Source of the DNA: Spirosoma sp. SC4-14
GTDB lineage: Bacteria > Bacteroidota > Bacteroidia > Cytophagales > Spirosomataceae
Reading direction: 5' to 3'
DNA: 64,000 bases
Assembly: GCF_037201965.1 (NCBI RefSeq)
Contig: NZ_CP147518.1
Coordinates: 1,301,001-1,365,000, forward strand
Below are positions 6,201-21,384 of this stretch, piece after piece. The notes beneath the pieces were generated by a model. That model did not search any database. It worked only from the letters and a program-made list of their open reading frames with translations, and had not been told where the DNA came from. A program made the position numbers and the translations under genes. The number at the start of each line of letters is the position of its first letter. The first letter of the stretch is position 1.

Positions 6201-7031
6201 TTAATTGGACATATCATCTAATTTAGACAAAGCTCTATTTATTTTTTTATATAAAAATGAAATTTCAATCATATTATTAGTGTCATGGCTAGTAAAAAAA
6301 TTTATAAAGAAAATAGGTATATCAGTTTTGAAAACTTTTTGTACAAATTCTTGACCCTCAATCCAACTTTCTATTAATTTCAATCTAAAGCTATGTAGTG
6401 CTAGACGACAAGCACGTTGAATAGTAGAATTAGGCTTTCCATAAATTGTATCTCCAAATAGTTGGTAACCTATCCATGATAGATGAACTCGTATTTGATG
6501 AGTTCTACCAGTGATAGGTTTTACGACTAACAATGAATAATAACCATTAGATAAAACAGTTTCATAAAAAGTTACACTTGGGTACGAGTTATGTAGTGAC
6601 TGGGAGCCGGATTCTCTTAATTTCCAAGTAGGATAGTTTTCTGAATTATCTACAAAAATTTCTTTTCTATTTCCGGCTACTCTAAAGCGATTTTTCCGAC
6701 CTGGACTAAGAGGTAAATCAATCTTTCCACTTGGAGGATAAGGTTGCCCAATACAGATAACTAAATAATATTTTTCTATTTTTCGATAGCAAAATTGCCT
6801 GTTTAATTGAGCTTGTACATTTTTAGAAAAAGCGATAAGTATTAAACCACTTGTACCTTTGTCTAAACGATGCACTTGGAAAATTTTTTTATTATTAAAT
6901 TGTCTTTCTAATAAATCCCAGAATGATTTAGAACAAGTTTTATCATTAAACATAGATAAACCTGTTGGCTTGTTAATCACTGCAAAGTTATTATCTTCAT
7001 ATATTATATCAAGGGTAAATTCTTCTAACAT
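6201..7031 (-). CDS. RluA-family pseudouridine synthase, cargo-cluster copy
   Basis: A 276-aa protein with the RluA-type catalytic motif HRLDKGTSG (residues 54-62, catalytic Asp57) and the later KPITGRTHQIRVHL signature near residue 170. The family isomerises uridine to pseudouridine in rRNA or tRNA. There is no N-terminal S4 domain; the C-terminal ~40 residues are unfamiliar. It is as AT-rich as the six genes upstream on the same strand and is separated from the ATP-grasp gene by 169 bp, so it may be the last gene of that operon or have its own promoter. A housekeeping role is possible. An accessory rRNA-modifying or self-protection role is my inference from context only. Confidence 0.85.
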   Translation of the reverse strand: MLEEFTLDIIYEDNNFAVINKPTGLSMFNDKTCSKSFWDLLERQFNNKKIFQVHRLDKGTSGLILIAFSKNVQAQLNRQFCYRKIEKYYLVICIGQPYPPSGKIDLPLSPGRKNRFRVAGNRKEIFVDNSENYPTWKLRESGSQSLHNSYPSVTFYETVLSNGYYSLLVVKPITGRTHQIRVHLSWIGYQLFGDTIYGKPNSTIQRACRLALHSFRLKLIESWIEGQEFVQKVFKTDIPIFFINFFTSHDTNNMIEISFLYKKINRALSKLDDMSN

Positions 7032-7200
7032 TAATTAAGCTATTGCAATGAGGTTTAAGGTACCAATATAATAGCTTATTTAGACTTAATTTGCAATAAT
7101 TATCTACTATATAAAATTTTTTACATAAAAATAAGTTGTACAAAAGTTAACATGTATTCTTTCCTAGGAAGAATACAGCAACTACCTATATAATATTTGA

Positions 7201-8205
7201 TTAAAAACTTTTAAATAAACCACTCGGAATGATTCTATTATCTAGAATCATTCTAAAAATTTCACCAACTTCTAAGTTAATTAAAGATGCAGAGACAGCG
7301 AAAGATGCTTTATCGAGCCCTAATTGTGGATTAGAATTCATCTCCAAAAAATAACACTGACCATTAGATGATAGGCGTAAATCAAGTCGTGCATAATCCC
7401 GTTGATGAGTAATGTAAAAAGCATCCTTAGCCATCTTATATATATTTTTTTTTATTTTCTCAGGATAACCGTCCATACTTTCATATTTTAAACCAGATTT
7501 TGTAGCTTTTGAAGCAGCTTCGAATAAAAAAGGTTGAGAGGATTTTTTTTCATGCTTAAGTACAACAGCAGGTAGTAAGAAAGCTTCTTCATACCCAATA
7601 ATTGGTATTGTAACATCCTCCCCGTCAATATATTCCTGAAGTAAAAGGGGTGCTTTTATGTTTGCATATACTTCATTGACTGTATTAAAAATATTATCTG
7701 GTTCATTTTCAATTAGCCTTAATCCTAAGCTAGACTCTTCATAGGCAGGTTTTAGAACAAGGAAACTTGAGGAAGAAAAATAAGAATTTAAAATCTGAGC
7801 TTCTTCTTTCTTTATTTCGCTAACTAAAAGATATTCTTTGGGTACTAAGTATCCTAAAGCCTTCATAAGTGAGTTACTATGAGGTTTATTCGACGAAAGT
7901 AATATTCCCAAAGGAGTTGCGCCAAAATATCTATTCCCACTTGCCTCTAGAAGATAAGAAGGGTGGATACAATCTATAAGCCTTCCAAAACCGTATGTAT
8001 AATTAAATATTGGGTATTTATCTATGTATTTAAACCAATTATTATTTGCAATATTAAGAAGCTCAATATCTGGAATATATTTTCGGAGGTGTGATATCAA
8101 CTTATTAATACTAATATCTGTCTCAAAATTAGCATATATTTCTTTCTGAAACCAGCTTTTCTCAAGCTGCACAGACGCAGGTACATTATAAAGGAAATAG
8201 ATCAT
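7201..8205 (-). CDS. ATP-grasp ligase, D-Ala-D-Ala-ligase-like
   Basis: A 334-aa ATP-grasp enzyme. Visible signatures are the ATP-binding strand-loop FLVLKPAYEESSLGL (about 147-162), QEYIDGEDVTIPIIG (about 196-210) and the metal-binding end YARLDLRLS...YFLEMNSNPQL (about 271-297). Such enzymes activate a carboxylate as acyl phosphate and join it to an amine, usually another amino acid. Sequence between motifs is not that of housekeeping Ddl. The ATG overlaps the stop of the radical SAM gene (ATGA), indicating translational coupling. I infer that it forms an amide between products of this cluster; substrates cannot be read from sequence. Confidence 0.85.
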   Translation of the reverse strand: MIYFLYNVPASVQLEKSWFQKEIYANFETDISINKLISHLRKYIPDIELLNIANNNWFKYIDKYPIFNYTYGFGRLIDCIHPSYLLEASGNRYFGATPLGILLSSNKPHSNSLMKALGYLVPKEYLLVSEIKKEEAQILNSYFSSSSFLVLKPAYEESSLGLRLIENEPDNIFNTVNEVYANIKAPLLLQEYIDGEDVTIPIIGYEEAFLLPAVVLKHEKKSSQPFLFEAASKATKSGLKYESMDGYPEKIKKNIYKMAKDAFYITHQRDYARLDLRLSSNGQCYFLEMNSNPQLGLDKASFAVSASLINLEVGEIFRMILDNRIIPSGLFKSF

Positions 8206-9170
8206 ATACTTTCATTTTTCGCCCAATTGTTTGTATTTATCTTTTGCCCTGTAAAATCTTTAACTATAGAAGTATCTGTATTCCAATGGTTTGACGGAAC
8301 AATAACTTTCCCAGAAGCATCAGGTATATCAATTACATGTTGTGGGAATGCAAGCCCTGAAAGTTCATTCCTTAATTTGGTCATTATAAAAATCTCATCA
8401 GCAAGAGACATTACAAATCTTTTTGTAGTTGGTATCTCTTGGCAATGGTATATATAATAAGGTCGTACGCCAAGCTCAAAAAGTCTCAAAAACATGGTTT
8501 TTAAAATAATTACATCATCATTGACACCTTTCAAAAATACACTTTGAGAGAGAAGAATAAATCCTGCTGCTCGAAATTTTTTTATAAGCTCAATACATTC
8601 TGGCTGAAGTTCATCTGGATGGTCAATATGCAAGCTTAGATAGATTGTATCTTTTGCTTTTACTAAGTGTTCCATCAACTCAAGGTTTACTTTATTTGGG
8701 AATTGTAAGGGAAACCTTGTATGAATTCGGAGTACTTTAACATGGTCAATCAAACTGAGACGATCAAATAAATATTTTAGACCTTTAGGATGTGTCAGAG
8801 GATCACCACCGCTTGCAATTACTTCATATATTGTAGGATCTTTTTTGATACTATCAACTACAGTGTCGATCTGTTTTTCTGTCAATCTACCGATTGAATC
8901 TAAACCAACTCCAACTCTATCCTGACGCTCACAGTAACGACAATTAGCAGCACAAGTATATGATAATAGAACCAATACTTGACCTTCATATTTTTTTACT
9001 ACACCAAAAACCGCTGAAGTATTTTTTTCGTTTAATAGATCTCTTTCAATATCTGCTGGTATATTTTCGTATTTTGAGTTAAATACGTACATTTTTTCCA
9101 CTGCTTTACTCCTTTGAGCTAACTCTTGTAGATAGGGAGTTAATTTTTCTGCAAATCTTGCTTCATTCAT
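8202..9170 (-). CDS. Radical SAM enzyme of the lysine 2,3-aminomutase (KamA/EpmB) family
   Basis: A 322-aa protein from ATG at 9170 (a GTG at 9179 would add three residues). The [4Fe-4S] cluster motif is CAANCRYC (Cys73, 77, 80), preceded by KYEGQVLVLL as in the family. Further family marks are ASGGDPLTHP, LRIHTRFPLQFPN, LSLHIDHPDEL, SVFLKGVNDD, RPYYIYHC and IDIPDASGK, the last holding the expected PLP lysine (Lys288). The family moves an alpha-amino group to the beta carbon. The Asp that follows PYYxYxC in lysine 2,3-aminomutase is Gln (Q244) here, while the second substrate Asp (D281) is kept, so the substrate may not be lysine. Length is closer to EpmB, but no EpmA is nearby. Confidence 0.87.
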   Translation of the reverse strand: MNEARFAEKLTPYLQELAQRSKAVEKMYVFNSKYENIPADIERDLLNEKNTSAVFGVVKKYEGQVLVLLSYTCAANCRYCERQDRVGVGLDSIGRLTEKQIDTVVDSIKKDPTIYEVIASGGDPLTHPKGLKYLFDRLSLIDHVKVLRIHTRFPLQFPNKVNLELMEHLVKAKDTIYLSLHIDHPDELQPECIELIKKFRAAGFILLSQSVFLKGVNDDVIILKTMFLRLFELGVRPYYIYHCQEIPTTKRFVMSLADEIFIMTKLRNELSGLAFPQHVIDIPDASGKVIVPSNHWNTDTSIVKDFTGQKINTNNWAKNESI

Positions 9171-9204
9171 AAAATTCACTGTTTAAGGATTGTACAAAGA
9201 CTTG

Positions 9205-10647
9205 CTAATCTATTTTTACAATATGAATTATTTCTTCATAAAATGACAAATCATCTAATCGCATTTTCAATAAACTATCGCCAATATTTTTTGCGATCAA
9301 TTTAATATTATAGTGTAAAAATTTTTGATCAAAATCTATTTCATCCAAAGTGATTGATAAATACTCAATACAGCTACCTTCAATTTCTATTCCTCTCACT
9401 TTCTGATTTACAGCAAAACGAATATTGAGAATAAGCCCGCTATTAGATAATGTACTTGTTTCAACAAATGGTGGATATGGAACTTGAACTCCTATTGAAG
9501 GAATCGACACGGCTTGTTCCACACTAAAAGGTCCCCAATGCAAATAAGTCGAATATGAGGTTATGGAGGGAATAATTAACAGGTTTTTTTTTAAGATTTC
9601 CGCGAAATTTAGCCCAACATTATAAAATCCACAAACGGAATTGGCTTGATTAACTAAAATAGATGTATCTCGTTTAGAATTGAAAGCTTGTAATAAGCAT
9701 TTCTCTAAGTGATTTATATTTCCTATTACAGCAAAAAATGCCAAGTTACCTAAAGTTTCACATAAGACGGGTAAATCATAACATACTACCTCTGTACCAA
9801 CGGCAAATGCCTCAATGGGTGGATAACCAAATCCTTCAAAATAGCTTGGAAACAAAAGAACTTGAGCCTTTCTTAATAAAATATACTTTTCTGCAACAGA
9901 AATACAAGTATGTGTAAGTATTGTTACATTATTGTTACTATAATGAGATTTCACCTTTTCAATAAACTCATCATTCTGTTGACCACCAAATACAATATTT
10001 AAAATACGACCTGAAAATATTTTAGGAGATAGTTTAAGTAAATCTTCCCCTCCTTTGTAATCATGGAATGGACGTACAAAAATTACAACACTAGCGTCCT
10101 TAGATAGATTTTTTGATAGTACTTTATTAGCTTCATTTGAATTGATAGGTGGCCTAGAGACGTCAAAATGAAGTTTTGATAAAGGTGTTCTATAGAAATT
10201 CCTTGCATATTCCTGGGCTTCGAAGGTACTTGAAATTACCAAGCCTCCATAGCATAAGACTCGTCGCCAATAATCCCATACTCTAGGATCATCTTTTGTT
10301 GGAGCTAAGTTGTTGAACCAATTCTCGCTTTCATAATTTAATAAACATATTCGCGCATTTGATAATCCAGCAAGCTGAAGAGCAGATTCATAATAAGTAG
10401 GAACATAAAACCCCGATGGAGCAACTATTACATAGTCATAATTCTTATTAGCTTGATACTCAACTTCCTCTGTAGTAAAGCTAAACGTCTGTATATCCGA
10501 GAACTCTGAGGCAAAGACTGGTGAGATATTCCAAAAAAAATTCACATTGTGACCACAAGCAGCTATTGCTTTACCTAATGAGAATGCGTGATATTGTCCA
10601 CCAGAATACATGTGAATTCTATTGTATATAAAAATGGCAATATTCAT
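9205..10647 (-). CDS. GT4-like glycosyltransferase with extra C-terminal domain
   Basis: A 480-aa protein. The N-terminal half starts MNIAIFIYNRIHMYSGGQYH with the GGxxxH-type loop of GT-B enzymes; the C-terminal Rossmann half has VFVRPFHDYKGGEDLL and the nucleotide-sugar motif LFPSYFEGFGYPPIEAFAVG with paired Glu residues (about 268-287). About 120 further residues after position 360 look like a beta-rich add-on with no family I recognise. It lies in the middle of the AT-rich cluster, between the unknown 546-aa gene and the radical SAM gene with 25-64 bp gaps, so it probably glycosylates the cluster product or a carrier. Donor and acceptor are unknown. Confidence 0.75.
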   Translation of the reverse strand: MNIAIFIYNRIHMYSGGQYHAFSLGKAIAACGHNVNFFWNISPVFASEFSDIQTFSFTTEEVEYQANKNYDYVIVAPSGFYVPTYYESALQLAGLSNARICLLNYESENWFNNLAPTKDDPRVWDYWRRVLCYGGLVISSTFEAQEYARNFYRTPLSKLHFDVSRPPINSNEANKVLSKNLSKDASVVIFVRPFHDYKGGEDLLKLSPKIFSGRILNIVFGGQQNDEFIEKVKSHYSNNNVTILTHTCISVAEKYILLRKAQVLLFPSYFEGFGYPPIEAFAVGTEVVCYDLPVLCETLGNLAFFAVIGNINHLEKCLLQAFNSKRDTSILVNQANSVCGFYNVGLNFAEILKKNLLIIPSITSYSTYLHWGPFSVEQAVSIPSIGVQVPYPPFVETSTLSNSGLILNIRFAVNQKVRGIEIEGSCIEYLSITLDEIDFDQKFLHYNIKLIAKNIGDSLLKMRLDDLSFYEEIIHIVKID

Positions 10648-10711
10648 TGTTTAAGTTATTTAGTCAAACATTAAACTTCCTTCATATTTTCTGTTATAAT
10701 TAATTTGCTTC

Positions 10712-12352
10712 TCACCTTAAAACTATGTCTACTATAATAGATTGGCGACGTTTTAAAGTTGAAAATTGATAGAAAGAGTCAGCTATCGCAGACCTATGCA
10801 ATACTTCACTTGGTGGACATAGCCTTACTAAATGCCTCATATTTTTAGGAATTTCAATAGATTCAGAAACAGATACTGGAAATAATTGTATCCAGGGTAG
10901 TTGATGCTCGTTAAAATCAAATGCAATTGGATAATTAAAATTATTCTGTGGACAATTTTTAGACCTATTAATTATATGTATTTGGTCTGCTGTAGTAAAA
11001 TCTGGGATAGCTATATTAAGGTCTGAGAAACCAGAACTCCGCTTTTCAAGTCGATATAATTTCGTATTACTTAGATCTCCACCGAGAAGTTCATAAAGAA
11101 ATTTTTCATTACCCTGAATGGAAAGTTCAATTATTGTGATTTCTTCACCTTGATCATCTACTAAACACCCTTGTGAGTTTTCTATGTCCTGTACTTTATT
11201 ATGAAATATTTTAGTGCCATCTCTGTATATACGTGAGTTCCCATTTTCTATACTCAATTCATTGATAGGTATATTAGAAGATTTTTCTGTTAGTTTAGCT
11301 AAACTCTCTAAATTTACAAGACCTCTTAGAACAGTACTTAAACGCTTACCTTTAGCAATCCCTATTGTATTTCTAGCGGAGTTATCTATTACTGGAAGAG
11401 CACAATGATAAGGCATCATCATTGGACCAATTGGTTTAACGTTCTCTGCAAATAGTAAGCTTATCGTTTCTCCTGGGAATAAGCAAAAAATATATCTGTC
11501 ACCATTGGGATGATCGAATATAATACCTGACATAGTGTTTTCTTGCATGTCCCAGTCGATAAGGGTTAAACACTGGGATACACTAAAGGAGTTTCTATTA
11601 GCTCCTAGTTTATCAAGGAATGCATATTGGTTCACTAAACGGTCTTTGTGAAATCGAAGAGCATCTCCATTTGTGATAATGCCCATTTCAGTAGAAACTT
11701 CATGAAATGATATCCCTATATTTTCTGATAATGATCGTTCTATAATCGAAAAGTATTGTTCAATTTGATGATGGTTTGAACCGTCTATATAATACTCGCT
11801 TACATTTAGGCTTCTATCCTTTAACCAAAGTGGAATAAATTCAGCTATAGCACAAGGAGGTGAAGTTCTATCTGTTGTAATAATTGTATTTTGAGAAATA
11901 GTATTTAACAACTCTTTTACCGCTAGCCGATGGGTTCCATTTGTGACAAAAAAAATTTTTGTTTCGCCAAAGTCTATTTTTGAGATACCTTGATTATCAG
12001 CTTTACTACTAATAGTTTTAATGTTATTTTTAGTCTGAATTTTAGATTGTTCCCAATGCAAATCAATTTTAATATTGAACCATTTGTTCAATAAAGCGGA
12101 AACTTTATTATAATCAAATTCTGTTTGATGGCTCCCTTTTTGAGTATGCTGGAAGAATTGTTGGATAATTAGTATCTTTATATCATCTGAAAGTTCAGAT
12201 AGCATAAAAAGTACATCTTCATCGTCAAAATATTCTTTAAGATGTACAACAATTTTTTCAAAAGCTTTGTTTATGCCTTTGGCTTTTTCAATATTATACT
12301 GGTTTCTAGTTAGATATGCTATTGATTCCTGTATTTCTGTATTAGCATCCAT
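10712..12352 (-). CDS. Unrecognised 546-aa protein of the EctB/EctC-like cluster
   Basis: I do not recognise this protein. It has no signal peptide and no membrane segment, so it is probably cytosolic. The first ~110 residues are helical and charged. A segment FFVTNGTHRLAVKELL (about 133-148) vaguely recalls ParB/Srx-like nucleotide-binding folds, but this is too weak to name. The middle (about 215-320) is mixed alpha/beta with several His and Cys residues (FHKDR, MMPYHCALP) and the last third is beta-rich. It sits between the EctC-like and glycosyltransferase genes on the same strand with 64-99 bp gaps. Equal AT-richness and orientation tie it to the pathway. It could be a catalytic or carrier component. 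Confidence 0.7.
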   Translation of the reverse strand: MDANTEIQESIAYLTRNQYNIEKAKGINKAFEKIVVHLKEYFDDEDVLFMLSELSDDIKILIIQQFFQHTQKGSHQTEFDYNKVSALLNKWFNIKIDLHWEQSKIQTKNNIKTISSKADNQGISKIDFGETKIFFVTNGTHRLAVKELLNTISQNTIITTDRTSPPCAIAEFIPLWLKDRSLNVSEYYIDGSNHHQIEQYFSIIERSLSENIGISFHEVSTEMGIITNGDALRFHKDRLVNQYAFLDKLGANRNSFSVSQCLTLIDWDMQENTMSGIIFDHPNGDRYIFCLFPGETISLLFAENVKPIGPMMMPYHCALPVIDNSARNTIGIAKGKRLSTVLRGLVNLESLAKLTEKSSNIPINELSIENGNSRIYRDGTKIFHNKVQDIENSQGCLVDDQGEEITIIELSIQGNEKFLYELLGGDLSNTKLYRLEKRSSGFSDLNIAIPDFTTADQIHIINRSKNCPQNNFNYPIAFDFNEHQLPWIQLFPVSVSESIEIPKNMRHLVRLCPPSEVLHRSAIADSFYQFSTLKRRQSIIVDIVLR

Positions 12353-12451
12353 ACGAAGAAAGTTTTATTAGTTTACTTATTCAGGGGTATATTAAGCAAA
12401 ATCACAAAACTCATTATAGAGCAATTTTACGAACATCCAGAAATTTATATA

Positions 12452-12844
12452 TTATTCTTTGGGAAGATCGTAATATCCTTCTTCTGTGTGTACTTCATTT
12501 CCAACAATTGGCGGGTTGAATACGCATATTAGCCTCATAGTTTCATATGCTCTAAGGTAATGCCTTTCATGAAGATTTAATACGTATATTGTTCCATCTG
12601 AGATATTGTGTATTTCACCAGTCTCCAAATTCTCAATTTCTCCTTTTCCAGAGACACAATAAACTGCCTCTACATGGTATTTATACCAAATGTATGTCTC
12701 AGTTCCTGCATGTATTAATGTATCATGCATAGAGAAACCTACATTATCTCCTTTAAGGAGAAATCGTCGGCTTACCCAATTCCCATTGGGCGCTTTTACC
12801 TCACGATCAGTTTCGTTTAAATCAATTAGACGCCGTACTATCAT
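12452..12844 (-). CDS. EctC-like ectoine synthase (cupin)
   Basis: A 130-aa protein, the normal EctC length, with nearly all signature blocks: MIVRRLIDLNETDREV, WVSRRFLLKGDNVGFSMHDT, AGTETYIWYKYHVEAVYCV, GTIYVLNLHERHYLRA and MRLICVFNPPIVGNEVH. Residues matching the described metal ligands (Glu59, Tyr87, His95, aligned from memory) are present. EctC closes N-gamma-acetyl-diaminobutyrate into ectoine by cyclodehydration, and the enzyme can also act on related substrates such as glutamine. It follows the EctB-like gene by 84 bp. No EctA acetyltransferase or EctD hydroxylase is in the window, so the acyl donor for ring closure must differ or be supplied elsewhere. Confidence 0.92.
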   Translation of the reverse strand: MIVRRLIDLNETDREVKAPNGNWVSRRFLLKGDNVGFSMHDTLIHAGTETYIWYKYHVEAVYCVSGKGEIENLETGEIHNISDGTIYVLNLHERHYLRAYETMRLICVFNPPIVGNEVHTEEGYYDLPKE

Positions 12845-12928
12845 ATCATTAGCTGGTTTACTTAAGGAGTATATAAATTTTGAAGTTCAGTTCTAGCGCG
12901 AGCTTAAAGAAGTTTTTATTGTTAAAAA

Positions 12929-14185
12929 TCACCCTTCATCTTTGCTTAATCCATGTATGACATCTCTAAATATATCCAATCCCTCCTTTAGTAACTCTCT
13001 TTTGATGATTAATGGAGGTATCAATTTTATAGTATGATTATTTATCCCACATGTTTCTATAATAAGCTTCCGCTTAAAGGCATGTGATATCACTTTATTT
13101 GGAAAGCCAAGTTTTGGGATTTCTAATCCCCAAATCATACCTCTTCCTTTAACTTTCATATTGAGCTCAGGTATTTCTTGAGAAATTAGATCAAGATAAG
13201 TACGAATTATTTTCGAGTTTTTATCTATAGATTCAATTAAACTATTCGTTTGCCAGTAAGAATTTAGGATTTCTGTAGATGCGACCATAGCTAAATTATT
13301 TCCTCTAAAAGTCCCTGTGTGCTTCCCTGGTTGCCATTGATCTAATTCTGGTTTTATTAATAGTAATGCCATAGGGTGCCCACCGCCGATTGACTTAGAG
13401 ATACAAACTAAGTCAGGATACAGACCTGCTTCTTCAAAACTAAAAAAACGACCAGTACGCCCATTACCAATTTGTATATCATCTACAATTAATAAAATAT
13501 CTAATTCTTTACAGAGCAACTCTAATTCTTTTAACCACGATATACTAGCAATATTTACTCCGCCCTCGCATTGTATAATTTCTACAATTATAGCAGCAGG
13601 TAATTCTATACCACTACCTTTATCTTCTAAAAATCTTCTCATATAACTTAGAGTATTAAAGCCTTCACCAAAATACCCATCATAAGGCATATGAGCTACA
13701 TTAGATCTATGACTATAAAATTGGTTATGGTAGAACGAATTACCCGTTATTGCGAGTGCGCCTAAAGACAATCCATGATAAGCATTTGTGAACGATATAA
13801 TATTTTGTCTTTTTTTTATAAGGCGCGCTAATTTTAGAGCCGCTTCCACAGAGTTGGCCCCAGTAGGACCGGTAAACTGAATTTTATAATCAAGGTTTCT
13901 GGGTAATAATATTATTTCATTAAATCTCTTTAAGAATTCCCTTTTTGCAACAGTTGCTTTATCTAACGATAGCGTTATTCCATCACTTTTTAAATATTTT
14001 ATAAGAGCTTTATTTACAATAGGGTTATTATGGCCATAGTTGAGAGAACCTGCCCCAGCAAAAAAATCAATGAACGCGTTTCCGTACTCGTCGTAAATTT
14101 TAGAACCTTTAGCTTTATCAAATATGACAGGGAAATGACGAATATAACTTCTGACATTTGATTCAATAGATTCAAAAATTTCCAT
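12929..14185 (-). CDS. EctB-like diaminobutyrate--2-oxoglutarate aminotransferase
   Basis: A 418-aa class III PLP aminotransferase that matches EctB closely: ESNVRSYIRHFPVIFDKAKG at the start, FIDFFAGAGSLNYGHNNP (about 38-55), QFTGPTGANSVEAALKLAR (103-121), YHGLSLGALAITGN, DDIQIGNGRTGRFFSFEEAG (235-254), Schiff-base Lys264 in ISKSIGGGHPMA, and TGTFRGNNLA. EctB makes L-2,4-diaminobutyrate from aspartate semialdehyde. The loop after the lysine is shorter than the SISGYGLPM form I recall for typical EctB, and GEG reads CEG (206-208). It is the first gene of the AT-rich operon, 53 bp downstream of the coupling-protein gene on the same strand. Confidence 0.88.
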   Translation of the reverse strand: MEIFESIESNVRSYIRHFPVIFDKAKGSKIYDEYGNAFIDFFAGAGSLNYGHNNPIVNKALIKYLKSDGITLSLDKATVAKREFLKRFNEIILLPRNLDYKIQFTGPTGANSVEAALKLARLIKKRQNIISFTNAYHGLSLGALAITGNSFYHNQFYSHRSNVAHMPYDGYFGEGFNTLSYMRRFLEDKGSGIELPAAIIVEIIQCEGGVNIASISWLKELELLCKELDILLIVDDIQIGNGRTGRFFSFEEAGLYPDLVCISKSIGGGHPMALLLIKPELDQWQPGKHTGTFRGNNLAMVASTEILNSYWQTNSLIESIDKNSKIIRTYLDLISQEIPELNMKVKGRGMIWGLEIPKLGFPNKVISHAFKRKLIIETCGINNHTIKLIPPLIIKRELLKEGLDIFRDVIHGLSKDEG

Positions 14186-14238: not shown

Positions 14239-16026
14239 TTATTTATGATATGGATTATTACTAAACTTCCCTTTTAATTCTGGTAAATGAAAGTATGGTA
14301 TTTTTGCAAAAGTCGTTGACGGGCTACCTCCGAAAAACGCGAAAATATTATCTGACGATCCACGTCGCACTTCATCGGGCGTTACCAAGGGTCTTTGATT
14401 TGCATTAGCGTCCTGTACACCAAACCAGCTTCGTGTTGTAATCACATGAGAAGTTTGACCAATGGCCGCACTCACATAGTTGGCTGTAAAATTATCGTTG
14501 ATGGTAAAGAACTGCCGTATTGCCGTGTTTGCCGTGAAAGTTTCCCAGTTCTCACCATACAATCCCTGCAATTGAATCAGTGATTGCAGGATCGGCCAGA
14601 CCGTGATTTCAAATCCGGCATAGGTACTTAAAGCTGTTTCGATTTCAGGTAAATAACCCAAAGCTGCAAATTCATCGAGTAAAAATGTAACGCGCTTGTT
14701 GGGGTTTCTGACAACAGCCCGTAAGGTCGTTGTCGCCATGAGCCGCAGCCAACGCGCATGGCTTTGCAGTTTGTCGGCGGGAATGATGATATAGAGTGCC
14801 GTATCACCATCCGATAAGGTGGCCGGGTCATAGCCGGACCGTAATGCTTTTTGCAGGGATGGGCTTTTTAGAAAGTCAGTTGCTTGTAAAATGGAGGAGA
14901 GGATACTGCCAAACGTTTCCTCACCGGCTTCCATCAATTTGACGATTTCGTTACCGGCATTGCGAATGATTTCTCCGTTCACCGGATCATTGTTGAGCCG
15001 CATACGGGCAATCAATTCATCCCAATCATCACCGGCAAGCCGTGCCCATCGCCAGAGCGTAGTAAGAGTTCGATCATTACCTTCCTGCGTTGTTGCAATC
15101 TGCATGATGAGGCCAGTGACGACAGAACGCGCGGTATCGGTAAAGAAGCGGTTCTTATCGTCACGCTCAACGGGCACGAGCATTTCCGCGATCATGTGCG
15201 CATCATCAACTAAATGAATGCTGCTAGTATCAGCTAGAATATCGAGTGGGTTATAGGATTCTGCTTCGCCAATATGCTCTTCCAGCAATCCCCACGGATT
15301 AAGAATGACAACCTGCCGTCCGCTTTCGCGTTGATACCGCGCTGTGATTGCAGCATTCTCGCCTTTGGGATCGATCACTACCCAGGAACCTGTATAACCA
15401 CCTAAACCAAGCAGGTTGGGGATAATCAAATTCGTGCCTTTGCCACCCCGTGTACCAGCAACTGTTAGGATATGGCCTTTGTCCTTGAAGACATACCCGC
15501 CACCGATATACAGGCCTGGCCCTTGCCGGTAGGAGTTCAGTTCATCAGGCCGGGCAAACCGCGCCGAGCCAAAGCGGTCGCTTTCGACCAGTGAATTGTT
15601 AATGCCTATTTGCCAGCGCCGGAAAACAAAAAAGACAATGAGCGAAAAAAACAGGTTGGAACCCAGGAACACTAGAAACGCATAGCCTTGCAACCCTATA
15701 ATTTCCGCGAGCAGCCTGAGCATGAATACGAGGCCAAACAGCACCAACCAGCCCAGGATCGCCCAGGCAAACATGGCAAACCGCACGATGGGATTTAAGG
15801 GATAGAGCAGGGGATATACGGCGAACGGCTTCATGAAGCGCAGATACGCCTGCGTATAGCCGAACAGGGCGCCCGCCAAGGTAATAGGCGTCAGAATGAG
15901 GCCGACCAGAAACAGAATGAGCCGGTTGCGGAACGAAGCACTTGGCTTGATCCGAAAAAGCTCTTCGATTTCGGCAGAGGTCACCCCAAGCCACCGTTTT
16001 GTCGAGTTACTGTCCAGCAGATTCAT
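14239..16026 (-). CDS. VirD4/TraG-type type IV coupling protein
   Basis: A 595-aa protein from ATG at 16026; a TTG at 16044 would add six residues. N-terminal membrane segments (about residues 35-60, 80-105, 115-137) are followed by a cytosolic ATPase. Walker A is AGTRGGKGTN (about 190-199), followed by WVVIDPKGENAA; Walker B is VTFLLDEFAALG (about 430). The protein docks the relaxase-DNA complex to the conjugation channel and pumps DNA. Base composition is close to the relaxases and far from the AT-rich genes downstream. The MobF relaxase in the same orientation lies 13.5 kb away, so the cargo sits between these two transfer genes. No other type IV secretion gene is visible. Confidence 0.9.
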   Translation of the reverse strand: MNLLDSNSTKRWLGVTSAEIEELFRIKPSASFRNRLILFLVGLILTPITLAGALFGYTQAYLRFMKPFAVYPLLYPLNPIVRFAMFAWAILGWLVLFGLVFMLRLLAEIIGLQGYAFLVFLGSNLFFSLIVFFVFRRWQIGINNSLVESDRFGSARFARPDELNSYRQGPGLYIGGGYVFKDKGHILTVAGTRGGKGTNLIIPNLLGLGGYTGSWVVIDPKGENAAITARYQRESGRQVVILNPWGLLEEHIGEAESYNPLDILADTSSIHLVDDAHMIAEMLVPVERDDKNRFFTDTARSVVTGLIMQIATTQEGNDRTLTTLWRWARLAGDDWDELIARMRLNNDPVNGEIIRNAGNEIVKLMEAGEETFGSILSSILQATDFLKSPSLQKALRSGYDPATLSDGDTALYIIIPADKLQSHARWLRLMATTTLRAVVRNPNKRVTFLLDEFAALGYLPEIETALSTYAGFEITVWPILQSLIQLQGLYGENWETFTANTAIRQFFTINDNFTANYVSAAIGQTSHVITTRSWFGVQDANANQRPLVTPDEVRRGSSDNIFAFFGGSPSTTFAKIPYFHLPELKGKFSNNPYHK

Positions 16027-16138
16027 AGGGGAATAAAAAATCAATTCAAAATGCGCTATTTATCAATGCCATGCCTCGGCTGTTTCACGAATGCCGGAAA
16101 CGGGTTGATGAAACGCGGTTTTTGCCACATGAAATTGC

Positions 16139-16229: not shown

Positions 16230-17987
16230 ATGGCCCCCATCCTGATCTTTTTACAAAAGATAAGGCGTTCTTATAGGCTGTTCCTCATTCTGACAGCAGG
16301 AGTTTTAAACGCCTTTCCCTTGGAAGCGCAAAAAGCGTCCGATCCGCCTAAAGTGATAGGGCGTTCCCTCTATGACAAGCTGGTAAAAGCCCAAAAAGAA
16401 TACGAGGACGCGATGGTGAAAGGTGACTCTTTAGAGGTAGCCGAAATGTGCTATCGGTTAGGAAAACGCTATACAGGCCTGGGTGATTTTGAAACGGCCC
16501 AGAAATACTTTATCCGTTCCTTGCGGATACGTGAGCCACTGGGTTCCTCAGAAGCAGAAGCGGTTGGCAAAACGTATTTATTCATGTCACACTCTCTGGT
16601 GGAGCAGAAAAAGTATATTGAGGTCATGCAGACCATACGGAAGGCAATGGCGAATTTCAAAGCCGCTGGTTCCAAACACGGTCTAATAAGTGGATACACC
16701 TCAATGGCCGGTGCCCATACATTAGGGTATGAGTTGAATCGAGAAACGCCAGGAGTCTATCCTCCTTACTCGCTGGATAGTGCAATCTACTATTTTAATC
16801 AGGCTGAAAAATTGGCGTTGATGTTAAACGTGCCCATTGATATCGCCAACATTTACCTTATCAAAGGAACGCTCCTCTTGAAGGTCACCCCTCAGCTTGG
16901 GCTTGCTTACCTGAAGAAAGCGGATTCCATCTTTACAAAAGAAAAAACACCCTATCCCATTATCAATACGTCATTAAACCTGGCGGATGCCTGTCTGATT
17001 TTACAACAGCCTGTTGGTGCAAAAAAATGGCTAAGTCGGGCACAGTATGTCATGGACACGGCCAGGCAGGGTGATTTCCAACAACGAGGAAAACTCTTTC
17101 AAATTTATACCCGACTCTATGAACAAACCGGACACTGGCAAGAGGCATTAAAGACACAAAAGACGTATTATGATTTAACCGTAGAGGCACTACAAGCAGA
17201 TCGAGAAGGGGCCATAACGCGTTTGAATATAGAGTATGAAACCCAGAAAAAAGAAGCCCAACTGAACTGGCAACGACGATTGAACGGGATCGTGATTGGG
17301 GTATGCATTCTAGCCATTATCGCGAGCATATTTTTTTACCGGTTTTTTCGGCGCTACCAGCGGCTTAGCCAGGAGAATGAGGCTTTGGTGATGGAGCAGA
17401 GCCATCGGGTGAAGAATAATTTTCAGCAACTCGCCAATCTGATGACATTACAGTCCAATCGTCTGACGAATGAAGACGCTCAAAAAGCCATCACTGAAGG
17501 ATTGCTTCGCGTAGAAGTGATGGCCTTGGTACATCAACGGCTTTATTATAGGAACCAGCAATTGGTTAAAATCAACTTGGAGAATTTTATCCCTGAACTG
17601 GTCGAAGGTGTCTTGTATGGCTATAGCTATGCGCACATTCAGCCAATTTATACATTGGAACCTGTTTGGCTCCATCCCGATAAAGCGATGTCTTTGGGAT
17701 TGATCATCAATGAACTGGTGACCAATTCCTGTAAATATGCATTCCCGGTCCAGCCTGCTTCTCGTCTCATAGTGACTTGCCAGCGTAGCGATCATACGAT
17801 CAACGTGGAAATAGAGGATAATGGTCCCGGTTTTGACGCCGGGAAAAGCTATGAGAGCTTCGGCCTGAAATTAATTCAGGCCTTCACACAACGCTTACAT
17901 GGTAAGGCTTGCCATGCAGCAGGTGGCAAGATATTCCGATTGTCATTCCCTGTTTATGATTCTCCATCTATCCATTTACACTCATGA
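16230..17987 (+). CDS. Sensor histidine kinase, TPR-type sensor with HisKA_2 core
   Basis: A 585-aa protein: N-terminal signal/anchor segment (about 15-33), a periplasmic helical region of tetratricopeptide-like repeats (about 65-330), one membrane span (about 350-372, VIGVCILAIIASIFF), then the cytosolic kinase. The phosphoacceptor His (about 392) lies in EQSHRVKNNFQQLANLMTLQ, typical of HisKA_2. The ATP-binding part has the N box INELVTNSCKYAF, the G1 box EIEDNGPGFD and SFGLKLIQAF. The gene overlaps the next one by ATGA, so the pair forms one two-component system. TPR-sensor/LytTR pairs of this type are common in Cytophagales. The signal is unknown. Confidence 0.88.
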   Translation: MAPILIFLQKIRRSYRLFLILTAGVLNAFPLEAQKASDPPKVIGRSLYDKLVKAQKEYEDAMVKGDSLEVAEMCYRLGKRYTGLGDFETAQKYFIRSLRIREPLGSSEAEAVGKTYLFMSHSLVEQKKYIEVMQTIRKAMANFKAAGSKHGLISGYTSMAGAHTLGYELNRETPGVYPPYSLDSAIYYFNQAEKLALMLNVPIDIANIYLIKGTLLLKVTPQLGLAYLKKADSIFTKEKTPYPIINTSLNLADACLILQQPVGAKKWLSRAQYVMDTARQGDFQQRGKLFQIYTRLYEQTGHWQEALKTQKTYYDLTVEALQADREGAITRLNIEYETQKKEAQLNWQRRLNGIVIGVCILAIIASIFFYRFFRRYQRLSQENEALVMEQSHRVKNNFQQLANLMTLQSNRLTNEDAQKAITEGLLRVEVMALVHQRLYYRNQQLVKINLENFIPELVEGVLYGYSYAHIQPIYTLEPVWLHPDKAMSLGLIINELVTNSCKYAFPVQPASRLIVTCQRSDHTINVEIEDNGPGFDAGKSYESFGLKLIQAFTQRLHGKACHAAGGKIFRLSFPVYDSPSIHLHS

Positions 17988-18787
17988 AAACACCCGTACG
18001 CATTTTGATCGTAGAGGATGAGTCTCTAGCCGTTATGGCGATCAAAGAAAGTCTTGAACGGACCAGTTATAAAATCTGTGGAGAGGCTGCTGATCATGAC
18101 TCCGCGATTGCCTTGATGAAGACAGAGTCGCCGGATTTAGTCCTCCTCGATATTGGCCTTAAGGGTAAACCCGATGGGGTTACAACAGCACAGAGTTTGA
18201 AAAAAATCAAACCGGTTCTGATCTTTTATATAACGGGCCGTATGGAAGATGAGACCTATGAAAGAGCTAAAAAAACAAACCCTATAGGATTTCTTTATAA
18301 GCCATTCCGGCCTTGGGACCTTGTCAGGCAGATCGACTTAGCCCTGCATAATTATCACGAAGGCAACCCTTCAGAAAACAGGCTCAAGTCTTATGATGAT
18401 GACGAGCAAAAAACAGACTTGATCAGTACGTCCGATTATCTTTATCTACCGGATAGGACCGCTAGGTTCCGTATTTATATAAAGAATATAATCTATTTAG
18501 AGGCTGATAAGGGGTATACTGAATTATTCCTAACGTCAGAGGAATTAGACCGATTAAAGCGTAAGATAAGGCGTGTGGTTGTTGCGAAGGGCTTGAGCAA
18601 TATACTCGATTATTTGCCAAATACGTTCTACAAATTATCGCGTTCGGTTGCCATTAATATGGATCATTTGGATCGGATCGAAACCAGTTACCTCGTTCTG
18701 GGTAGCTATGAAGTTGCATTACCGGAAGGAACTCGCCAGCCACTTTTAGAGCGTCTCAATGCAATTCGTTCGCGGAAACGGACTTGA
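17984..18787 (+). CDS. LytTR-family response regulator
   Basis: A 267-aa protein. The receiver domain (1-120) has acidic pocket E11/D12, phosphoacceptor D56 in LVLLDIGLKG, T84 and K106 in FLYKPFRP. After a charged linker comes a LytTR DNA-binding domain (about 150-262) with RIYIKNIIYLEADKGYTEL and FYKLSRSVAINMDHLDRI. Phosphorylation by the overlapping upstream kinase is expected, with binding to promoter repeats as in other LytTR regulators. Targets are not identifiable from the window; neighbouring mobile-element cargo is possible. Confidence 0.88.
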   Translation: MKTPVRILIVEDESLAVMAIKESLERTSYKICGEAADHDSAIALMKTESPDLVLLDIGLKGKPDGVTTAQSLKKIKPVLIFYITGRMEDETYERAKKTNPIGFLYKPFRPWDLVRQIDLALHNYHEGNPSENRLKSYDDDEQKTDLISTSDYLYLPDRTARFRIYIKNIIYLEADKGYTELFLTSEELDRLKRKIRRVVVAKGLSNILDYLPNTFYKLSRSVAINMDHLDRIETSYLVLGSYEVALPEGTRQPLLERLNAIRSRKRT

Positions 18788-19358: not shown

Positions 19359-19727
19359 ATGGCACGACCCCCAAAGGACGATGCGGACAAACGCGAATTC
19401 ACTATTCGCGTTCGCGTGACTGCATCTGAGAAACTGCGTATCTGGCAGATGGCAGCCGAGAACGGCTATACGCCCAGCGACTTCATGCGCTTGCGGACAA
19501 TGGCGGCCACACAACCCCTGCGGCATAAGCCCACACCAGAACGTGAATTGCTGCTCCATGTGATGGCCGAACTTGGCAAGGTCGGCAGCAATGTCAATCA
19601 GATTGCACGTGCCCTCAACAGCCGTGATGAGACGGGGCAACTGGCCGACATCGATACGGATGAGATCAACCAGGCCATGCAAGGTTTGGATAATCTCACA
19701 GCACAGGTTCTCAAACTGCTTAGCTAA
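19359..19727 (+). CDS. MobC-like mobilisation (relaxosome accessory) protein
   Basis: A 122-aa basic protein with an N-terminal ribbon-helix-helix-like segment (EFTIRVRVTASEKLRIWQMA, about 12-31) and the MobC-family helix ELGKVGSNVNQIARALN (about 71-87). Such proteins bind oriT and help the relaxase open the DNA. Its stop overlaps the start of the relaxase gene, which is the usual mob operon order. Confidence in the role is good; the name MobC is by family resemblance. Confidence 0.8.
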   Translation: MARPPKDDADKREFTIRVRVTASEKLRIWQMAAENGYTPSDFMRLRTMAATQPLRHKPTPERELLLHVMAELGKVGSNVNQIARALNSRDETGQLADIDTDEINQAMQGLDNLTAQVLKLLS

Positions 19728-21151
19728 TGGTCATCCGGGGAGCGATACGGGGCAATGGCAAACAGCTAGCACATTACCTTCTCTCTGGAGAAGCCAATGA
19801 ACGTGTCCAGGTTGTGGACGTTGCCGGACGCTCAAACGCAACCGACGCTTATTTGCATCAGACCTTGCAAAGCATGTCGCTGACCAGCGAGCCAACCAAA
19901 AGTCAGAAAGGGCTGTACCACGCCCAGATCAATCCGGCTTATAGCGAAGACCGGAAAATGAGCGAAAAGGACTGGCTCAAGGCGGCTGATATTTTGGGCA
20001 ACGAGTTAGGGTTGCAGGAGCAACGGCGCGTGATTGTCCTACACACCAAAAAGGGCAGGACACATGCGCATGTGGTCTGGGAGCGCTACGACCATAAAAC
20101 CGGCAAAGTGATTGCCAACAAGTTTAGCCGACTGGCTCAAGATCGTGCTCGTAAAGAAATGGAGCGAGTGTTTGAGCAGCAACCTACGCCCCACCGCAAT
20201 CAGCATCGGCCTGAACTCAAGGAAGCGCTGACCAATCTATGGAACGACACTGAAACGGGGAAAGAGTTTGTCAAAGCCGTCCATGACAATGGGTATCTGT
20301 TGGCCGAAGGTGTGCCACGTCATCCGTTCATGGTGGTAGATGAGAATGGGCGGTCGTTTGATCTAGTACGCCAGCTAAAAGGTGTGTGGATCAAAGAAGT
20401 TCGTCAGCGTTTGCGCCATGAAAAGCTGATACCGGAGAAAGAAGCCATCGAATTGATGCGTCAAAAGCAGGAAGGTAGTAGTAACGCGAATAAGGCCGAA
20501 CAGCAGCGCGATTTGGATAAAGCGAAAAAAACGGCCATTGCCTTCTGGGATAATAAGCAGGATACAACACAGGAAGTCGAAGAGACTGAGAGCCGCAAGC
20601 GAATGAAAGATTTGGCTGAAAGCTTTATTCAATCAGGCCAAGAACTGACGGAAGCAGAAGCAACAGATCAAACCGATAGCCTTGAAAAGAAAAAGAAACG
20701 AGCAGGAGAGTATTTTTTGAATTCGGATGAATTGACGGGCAAAGCCGAAGAATCTGCAACGCAGTTAGTGAATGATTACACAGAGGCACAAGAGGAGATA
20801 ACTACGAAGTCACAGAGCATTGAGAGCCGACAGAGACAGCAAAGGATAGCGCAGCAATTTGCAGCTAACGAAGAAGACACAAGCCAACCGAGTACAAAGC
20901 CAGATAGTAAACGGCATCAAGACATCCTGAAAGAGTTTATGCAAGCCGAGGACGAATTGGTTGATCAAAATGACAAACCACAGGAAGAAACCGTGCAGCG
21001 ACAACAGACAACAGCACGGCAATTTTTGGAAAATGAAGACCTAACGACAGCCGAAGTTGCCAACAATGAAAACGAGCTTCAACGACTGATGCAGGAGCAG
21101 AGGGCAATCCGAGAGCGCAACCAGCAGAAGGTAAAAAAGAGAGTTCGCTAA
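19727..21151 (+). CDS. Relaxase/mobilisation nuclease (MobA/VirD2-like)
   Basis: A 474-aa protein. The N-terminal ~170 residues form a relaxase domain: MVIRGAIRGNGKQLAHYLLSG at the start and the metal-binding histidines in LHTKKGRTHAHVVW (His106, 113, 115). The rest is a long, charged, helical tail with repeated segments of the type KxRAxxFL/F and ExxED, likely coiled coil. It would nick an oriT near the upstream MobC-like gene. It is the last gene before tRNA-Asn, and it is a different family from the MobF relaxase at the left edge, so the region has two relaxases. Confidence 0.85.
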   Translation: MVIRGAIRGNGKQLAHYLLSGEANERVQVVDVAGRSNATDAYLHQTLQSMSLTSEPTKSQKGLYHAQINPAYSEDRKMSEKDWLKAADILGNELGLQEQRRVIVLHTKKGRTHAHVVWERYDHKTGKVIANKFSRLAQDRARKEMERVFEQQPTPHRNQHRPELKEALTNLWNDTETGKEFVKAVHDNGYLLAEGVPRHPFMVVDENGRSFDLVRQLKGVWIKEVRQRLRHEKLIPEKEAIELMRQKQEGSSNANKAEQQRDLDKAKKTAIAFWDNKQDTTQEVEETESRKRMKDLAESFIQSGQELTEAEATDQTDSLEKKKKRAGEYFLNSDELTGKAEESATQLVNDYTEAQEEITTKSQSIESRQRQQRIAQQFAANEEDTSQPSTKPDSKRHQDILKEFMQAEDELVDQNDKPQEETVQRQQTTARQFLENEDLTTAEVANNENELQRLMQEQRAIRERNQQKVKKRVR

Positions 21152-21300: not shown

Positions 21301-21310
21301 GATTTTCAGG

Positions 21311-21384
21311 CTCCCGAAGCTGGGCTCGAACCAGCGACCCTCTGATTAACAGTCAGATGCTCTAACCGACTGAGCTATTCGGGA
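21311..21384 (-). tRNA. tRNA-Asn (GTT)
   Basis: The minus strand folds as a 74-nt tRNA: 7-bp acceptor (TCCCGAA with TTCGGGA, discriminator G), D arm AGCTCAGTCGGTTAGAGC, anticodon arm with GTT in CTGACTGTTAATCAG, and T arm with GGTTCGAGCC. CCA is not encoded. It has its own promoter and terminator. The mobile-element genes lie on its 3' side, the usual side for integration. Confidence 0.96.

Follow-up and report, generated by a model that had tools for sequence, protein, structure and literature searches.

Besides the canonical ectABC(D) operons, orphan proteins of the ectoine synthase (EctC) type encoded outside ectABC have been described. In the accessible parts of the reports concerned, their role is unclear, and 145 of these orphans display 37–42% identity to the EctC of P. 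lautus (PMC6344544, PMC5924519). Here, we examined a 64,000-nucleotide stretch of the genome of Spirosoma sp. SC4-14 (contig NZ_CP147518.1, positions 1,301,001 to 1,365,000), which is referred to below as the window. At positions 6201–14185, it contains an AT-rich, minus-strand set of seven genes which includes ectB and ectC but not ectA. All seven open reading frames (ORFs) are intact and lie where an earlier reading, made from the letters alone (the sequence-only reading), had placed them. From the first to the last gene, their products are EctB, EctC, a 546-aa protein of no recognised family, a GT4 glycosyltransferase, a KamA-type 2,3-aminomutase-like protein, an ATP-grasp ligase, and an RluA-like protein. 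Our preferred interpretation, to which we assign a probability of about 0.35, is that this is a horizontally acquired small-molecule operon on a mobilisable island, in which the ligase replaces the acetyltransferase EctA and EctC yields a relative of ectoine.

The ectB gene (12929–14185) encodes a diaminobutyrate–2-oxoglutarate transaminase, which scores 615.9 bits against TIGR02407 (cut-off 552.2). The product of ectC (12452–12844) matches PF06339 (185.8 bits), passes NF009806 (187 bits versus a cut-off of 128), and matches the structure 5ONM at 143 bits. A search of genome contigs with EctC revealed three loci, the best of which, from Moorena sp. (L010), shows 76% identity. Locus L035, from a genome (G759) of the same order as Moorena, encodes an EctC 97% identical to that of L010; its gene set is called Moorena-type here. 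The window EctC is 75–76% identical to the proteins of L035 and L010 and is their sister in a tree of 27 rows (support 100/99). Likewise, the window EctB shares 63% identity with the EctB of L035 and is its sister in a tree of 11 rows (100/99). Estimation of dN/dS against L035 was uninformative, with a dS of 3.9 for EctB and an undefined value for EctC. L035 harbours a complete set, namely EctA (178 bits), EctB, an insertion-like ORF, EctC, and, in the opposite sense, EctD (343 bits). Both EctA and EctD are over cut-off there, and ectA is located directly upstream of ectB. In the genome named Moorena sp., the start of EctA (30.6 bits) is cut by the contig end. Solitary EctC proteins of cyanobacteria (10 rows; L026–L034 and L037) form a separate clade. 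They possess Gly at the residue aligned with Trp21 and Trp a few residues earlier, as do some orphans in the accessible part of PMC6344544. The solitary EctC gene of L037 is followed by an ORF that looks desaturase-like by eye.

The window EctC looks functional and in use, because it retains all 34 residues that are invariant among nine further canonical EctC proteins; the possibility of a decaying EctC was rejected for the same reason. The corresponding count for EctB, which left out two partial EctB rows, identified changes, G206C and L270H among them, at 5 of the 108 positions that do not vary across nine further EctB proteins, and these nine proteins themselves range from 1 to 9. At 11 metal- and substrate-binding EctC positions listed in the accessible part of PMC6344544, 10 residues are identical to those of P. 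lautus. The remaining one, N38, is replaced by His, a residue that the canonical EctC proteins compared also have. The EctC of the carrier-protein clusters described below keeps these 11 sites as well, so that this comparison does not distinguish an acetyl group from other acyl substrates.

The sequence-only reading had reported EctB and EctC without EctA, and had regarded an ectA or ectD elsewhere in the genome as evidence against its proposal. Our genome-wide searches agree with it: neither gene was found over cut-off, the best matches being 22.2 bits for EctA (cut-off 120.6) and 57.5 bits for EctD (cut-off 336.5). EctA matches only below cut-off were also seen in 7 of 14 control genomes. 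When EctA proteins were compared by tblastn with the window and with three stretches on its left side, no match rose above chance level (best E-value 0.066). The best match lies to the left of the window, inside a 444-aa ORF that resembles a radical SAM protein by eye, and was attributed to chance. EctA was present in 10 of the 12 further loci that encode EctB together with EctC (L011, L012, L035, L036, L080, L082, L083, L084, L086, L089, L090, and L096); a different GNAT protein occurs in L090, and L036 is cut by a contig end. The window set is, therefore, without a nearly constant component. The second EctC-containing genome of the same order as Spirosoma (G1359) possesses an ordinary set, in which EctA (156 bits) and EctD (368 bits) each exceed their cut-off.

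In the window, ectB starts 53 bp from the stop codon of a neighbouring traG gene, that is, where ectA would be expected. This arrangement would also fit a different history, in which EctB and EctC are the remnant of an ectABC operon from which ectA disappeared during capture by the island, and the other five genes are separate cargo. Ectoine would then be formed only if another host acetyltransferase acetylates diaminobutyrate, and otherwise there would be no product. We rate this explanation as equal in probability to the replacement of EctA. It requires fewer assumptions and agrees with the sister relationship of both enzymes to those of a complete set, with the ordinary EctC active site, with the variable cargo of related islands, and with the existence of orphan EctC proteins, which are unexplained in the accessible parts of PMC6344544 and PMC5924519. 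It leaves the good preservation of EctC at invariant positions unexplained, and neither the tblastn search nor the best genome match to EctA (22 bits) points to an ectA remnant.

The base composition of the set also bears on this question. All seven genes have a GC content of 0.29–0.37 and a third-position GC content (GC3) of 0.18–0.27, versus 0.489 and 0.518 in traG. In a profile of 1-kb windows over bases 1–30000, GC content is approximately 29–35% along the set, 0.40–0.47 in the left flank, and 0.44–0.53 in the right flank from 14501 on, which confirms the sequence-only description of seven same-strand genes more AT-rich than their flanks. The shared strand and GC3 range argue against the five downstream genes being separate cargo. 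Low GC content as a mark peculiar to this set was rejected, since cargo at the same site in congeners mostly has 25–37% GC too. From ectB onwards, the genes are separated by 84, 99, 64, and 25 bp, the KamA-type gene shares 4 bp with that of the ligase, and 169 bp precede the RluA-like gene, whose place in the set is uncertain given this gap. Scans of the stretch gave 59 promoter-like matches (expected 42.2, standard deviation 6.7) and 3 terminator-like matches (expected 3.4), and are of little help in such AT-rich DNA.

We call the seven genes the cargo of a putative integrated mobilisable island. One end of it is marked by a tRNA-Asn gene (21309–21384, minus strand), 47 bp of which (21310–21356) recur exactly at positions 1259196–1259242 of contig C1 of this genome (G000). 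The interval between the two repeats is approximately 63 kb, and a gene for a tyrosine integrase is located beside the second copy (C1:1259386). Thus, the island features found include a direct repeat at a tRNA gene, an integrase at one end, a MobA relaxase, and TraG. TraG is a TraG/VirD4-type coupling protein (14239–16044, minus strand; PF02534, 224 bits). The mob genes (19359–21151, plus strand) encode a MobC-like protein, recognised by eye, and a MobA/VirD2-like relaxase. Between traG and these genes, a histidine kinase (HisKA_2; TPR) and, judged by eye, a response-regulator-like ORF are encoded on the plus strand (16230–18787). Genes for Cas6, Cas3, Cas4, and Cas1 are carried by the same island (L078, G000:C1:1262916–1270517), and three ORFs among them belong to no Pfam family. 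The island also includes a 444-aa ORF that resembles, by eye, a radical SAM/SPASM peptide-maturase-type protein (L092:1156–2490; G000:C1:1276056–1277390).

The C-terminal tail of TraG (window 14239–14302) comprises approximately 20 AT-rich codons, with NPY close to the end, and no two of the six copies compared are alike in this part. Among the seven TraG matches listed, five stop at window positions 14301–14325, while the other two reach 14276 and 14245. Cargo exchange, therefore, seems to reach into the end of traG, with the recent boundary probably inside the tail and not between traG and ectB. Such a boundary speaks against an ectABC operon broken on capture.

The DNA behind traG differs in each of five congeners (G659, G643, G650, G663, and G664; loci L071, L072, L073, L075, and L076, respectively). 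The slot of G659 (L071:1440–4659) carries another small-molecule-looking set, consisting of HMGL-like, TauD-like, and Ddl-type ATP-grasp genes. Its ATP-grasp protein, also encoded beside TraG, is the second match to the window ligase in the genus (24% identity). In G643, the slot encodes an SDR, a cupin, a product of no recognised family, and a trypsin-like protein whose match to NACHT stays below threshold. G650 has two ORFs there that fit no family, G663 a sub-threshold AAA ATPase, and G664 a GNAT-containing protein together with two ORFs that lack a family. In addition, G650 encodes a CAP12/TIR protein in its other gap, the one that separates the mob genes from traG. The TraG and mob matches are no more than 300 bp apart in 5 of 7 congener TraG/mob pairs, and the kinase and regulator-like ORF occupy this interval in the window. 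The protein with the sub-threshold NACHT match, the CAP12/TIR protein, and the Cas genes of the island might suggest a defence or competition operon, with a product that acts against phages or rival bacteria. We consider this very improbable, since none of the seven proteins matches a PADLOC model at an E-value of 0.001 and further cargo of the slot has metabolic functions (HMGL-like, TauD, ATP-grasp, SDR).

The families named by the sequence-only reading were recovered over cut-off for EctB and EctC, whereas the KamA-, ATP-grasp-, and RluA-type proteins score under every NCBIfam cut-off matched. The KamA-type radical SAM/PLP protein (8202–9179, minus strand) matches six NCBIfam models, including the best-scoring one, TIGR03822 (225.6 bits versus 396), and, closest to its cut-off, TIGR00238 (194.2 bits versus 199.2). 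The aminomutase scaffold predicted earlier is nevertheless kept. The CxxxCxxC motif (C76, C80, C83) and the PLP-lysine position (K291) are invariant in a seven-row alignment and align to 2A5H. The Asp330 position of lysine 2,3-aminomutase is kept as D284, and the Lys337 position is also kept. The Asp293 position is occupied by Gln247 in the window protein alone, while Asp is present in the other seven of eight sequences, 2A5H included. In lysine 2,3-aminomutase, Asp293 and Asp330 are contacts to the lysine side chain. Because of the Gln at the Asp293 position, lysine appears doubtful as the substrate, a view we hold with modest confidence.

This protein is 31–36% identical to six KamA proteins. 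Three rhizobial relatives adjoin efp and epmA/genX, so that part of this KamA branch looks like EpmB; a Deinococcus relative does not adjoin these genes. A role of the window protein as a modifier of EF-P was rejected, since neither efp nor epmA was found in the adjoining ORFs, to which this search was confined. One locus from a genome of the same class (L045:7499–9995) contains three successive ORFs, one that looks desaturase-like by eye, one of 209 aa, and one for a KamA-type protein; the first two show no NCBIfam match at an E-value of 1e-10.

The gene adjoining that of the KamA-type protein, in line with the pairing pointed out by the sequence-only reading, encodes a D-Ala-D-Ala-ligase (Ddl)-type ATP-grasp protein (7201–8205, minus strand). 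Its Dala_Dala_lig_C domain (PF07478) scores 52.4 bits versus a gathering score of 24, and it aligns to the Ddl 1iov over residues 85–295. Its best match to the NCBIfam Ddl models is 66.5 bits versus a cut-off of 243. Seventeen plasmid records match the ligase, with identities of 25.7–30.0% among 15 matches listed, and all four records that were opened show other neighbours. Viral contigs scanned with the ligase, KamA, EctC, and EctB contained no relative of any of them. Ddl-type ligases join amino acids, and the ligase is the sole acyl-joining enzyme that we recognise in the set. Replacement of EctA by this enzyme is plausible.

In the proposed route, which the sequence-only reading had outlined and which our results support in part, EctB would convert aspartate semialdehyde to L-2,4-diaminobutyrate, and the KamA-type enzyme, whose gene overlaps that of the ligase, would act on a non-lysine substrate to give probably a beta-amino acid. 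The ligase would join an amino acid, probably this beta-amino acid, to diaminobutyrate in place of the acetyl transfer by EctA. EctC would then cyclise the N-acyl-diaminobutyrate to a tetrahydropyrimidine, i.e., a relative of ectoine with an aminoalkyl group instead of the methyl group. The GT4 protein may glycosylate the product, and the RluA-like gene is perhaps not part of the pathway. The gene content, the intact frames, the island context, the absence of an EctA over cut-off, the EctB/EctC kinship, and the intact EctC site are directly supported; the single shared pathway, every substrate, and the order of the steps are what we infer. The more far-reaching idea that an unmodified EctC, a non-lysine aminomutase, and a ligase make aminoalkyl-ectoines, a new product class which a mobilisable island would spread among bacteria, is rather doubtful at present.

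The remaining three genes offer fewer clues. The GT4 glycosyltransferase (9205–10647, minus strand) matches PF00534 with 59.9 bits. Its nearest relative among eight plasmid records, 34% identical over residues 1–324, is the start of a 1361-aa ORF from Sinorhizobium fredii, and the region around this relative looks like a polysaccharide locus by eye. The RluA-type pseudouridine synthase-like protein (6201–7031, minus strand) matches PseudoU_synth_2 (PF00849; 103.5 bits) and has the HRLD motif; its score against TIGR00005 is 146.8 bits versus a cut-off of 192.7. A pseudouridine nucleoside product centred on the RluA-like protein, by analogy with pseudouridimycin, was considered and dropped for want of a test. 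The 546-aa protein (10712–12352, minus strand) showed no Pfam, NCBIfam, or PADLOC family at an E-value of 0.001 and no sequence match in PDB at an E-value of 10. Its best Pfam match, TBPIP_N (E-value 0.073), was taken as chance. At the sensitivities used, no homolog of this protein was detected in plasmids, phages, or viral contigs. It was found in one of 395 genomes of the class, which is its own copy, and in none of 339 genomes in the phylum of G640, a sample for which a negative outcome carries no information. Prediction of its fold from the single sequence gave a mean pLDDT of 37, too low to be informative.

Analysis of plasmids revealed EctC in other biosynthetic surroundings. EctC matches 120 plasmid records, 11 of which were opened. 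In Rhizobium gallicum (L085/L091), EctC is encoded after an AMP-binding enzyme and a carrier protein. The same cluster includes an EctA-like GNAT protein (105.4 bits versus a cut-off of 120.6) and a decarboxylase-like protein, the end of which resembles 3-aminobutyryl-CoA ammonia lyase (104.8 bits versus 160). Two Streptomyces plasmids (L087 and L088) were annotated with the parts seen in R. gallicum; the one tested has EctA over cut-off (139.4 bits) and a lyase homolog with 144.7 bits versus 160. The R. gallicum and Streptomyces clusters possibly represent an unstudied ectoine-like pathway. On a plasmid of S. mexicanum, the gene preceding that of EctC encodes a PurD-type ATP-grasp protein of full length; GNAT and EctB genes are nearby, and the whole lies among polyketide synthase (PKS) and nonribosomal peptide synthetase (NRPS)/PKS genes. 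As these three cases demonstrate, EctC does adjoin amino-acid-loading and ATP-grasp genes elsewhere.

The S. mexicanum arrangement, the amino-acid-joining activity of Ddl-type ligases, and the polysaccharide-like region around the GT4 relative would also fit another product. EctB might supply diaminobutyrate, KamA and the ligase might make a short peptide or amide in which EctC closes the amidine afterwards, and GT4 might attach it to, or make, a glycan. This appears unlikely. The accessible part of PMC6344544 describes a deep tunnel with the EctC core at its bottom, a geometry unfavourable to large peptide substrates, and the Pfam and NCBIfam scans recognised neither an NRPS nor an export gene in the set.

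The distribution of the genes was surveyed in a limited number of genomes and loci. Of 102 locus entries read, 90 were compared, some of them overlapping within one genome, after six loci from the window itself and six alignment rows had been left out. The sequence-only reading had proposed searching other genomes for EctC together with KamA, and had regarded the lack of a conserved neighbourhood of the seven genes as evidence against its proposal; neither the pairing nor such a neighbourhood was found in these sets. In the 90 loci, EctC does not stand beside KamA or the ligase, and the 546-aa protein does not occur outside the window. In genome samples that overlap each other, EctC was detected in 1 of 296 genomes of the phylum (its own copy), in 2 of 194 of its own order, and in 12 of 243 from the order to which G640 belongs. 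The ligase was present in 2 of 36 genomes of the genus, and KamA in 3 of 247 genomes of the class at an E-value of 1e-30 or below and in 1 of 200 of the family at 1e-20 or below.

Several results weigh against a replacement of EctA by the ligase. The full gene set occurs in one genome only within the limited sets searched, with no conserved seven-gene neighbourhood elsewhere, and the R. gallicum and Streptomyces precedents retain an EctA-type gene. EctC is sister to that of a complete ectABC-D set and has the canonical residue at each of the 11 sites inspected, with no remodelling visible, and one of the five EctB changes at invariant positions falls in the QGEGG stretch. The proposed pathway does not account for the ligase substrate, the 546-aa protein, GT4, or the RluA-like gene, and the cargo slot can assemble unrelated genes. 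At equal odds with a broken ectABC operon, we prefer the replacement route because it makes sharper predictions. The operon combines an EctC of the ectABC type and its own EctB with no acetyltransferase and with two adjoining enzymes that might together provide a different acyl group. Given this composition, the role of EctC outside ectABC becomes testable by expression of a few genes. If the replacement route is true, it would imply a new class of cyclic-amidine products and an ATP-grasp route to them; if only ectoine or nothing is made, the locus would illustrate plainly how transfer can break an operon.

A search of a limited literature collection yielded no paper on EctC beside amino-acid-loading or ATP-grasp genes, and nothing on ectC without ectA. 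Judging from titles and the beginnings of abstracts, the papers found that mention ectoine synthase together with radical SAM or aminomutase deal with salt or acid tolerance, osmolytes, and natural products. New here are the island context, the cargo slot, the EctB/EctC kinship with a Moorena-type set, and the Gln at the Asp293 position.

Like the orphan and solitary EctC proteins, the window EctC stands without the full pathway, but it groups with EctC of the ectABC type and has its own EctB. In comparison with the canonical ectABC(D) operon of L035, EctB and EctC are homologous and both are sisters of the L035 proteins, while the window set has no ectA or ectD over cut-off, and ectB–ectC is followed by five genes unseen in the ectoine operons examined. 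The KamA-type protein shares the FeS, PLP-lysine, and Asp330 positions with EpmB/AblA_like_2 proteins and with lysine 2,3-aminomutase (2A5H), but differs in having Gln at the Asp293 position and no adjoining efp or epmA. The clusters of R. gallicum and Streptomyces possess an EctA-type gene, no EctB match, and neither KamA nor a Ddl-type ligase; what they have in common with the window set is an EctC encoded beside amino-acid-loading and beta-amino-acid-related enzymes.

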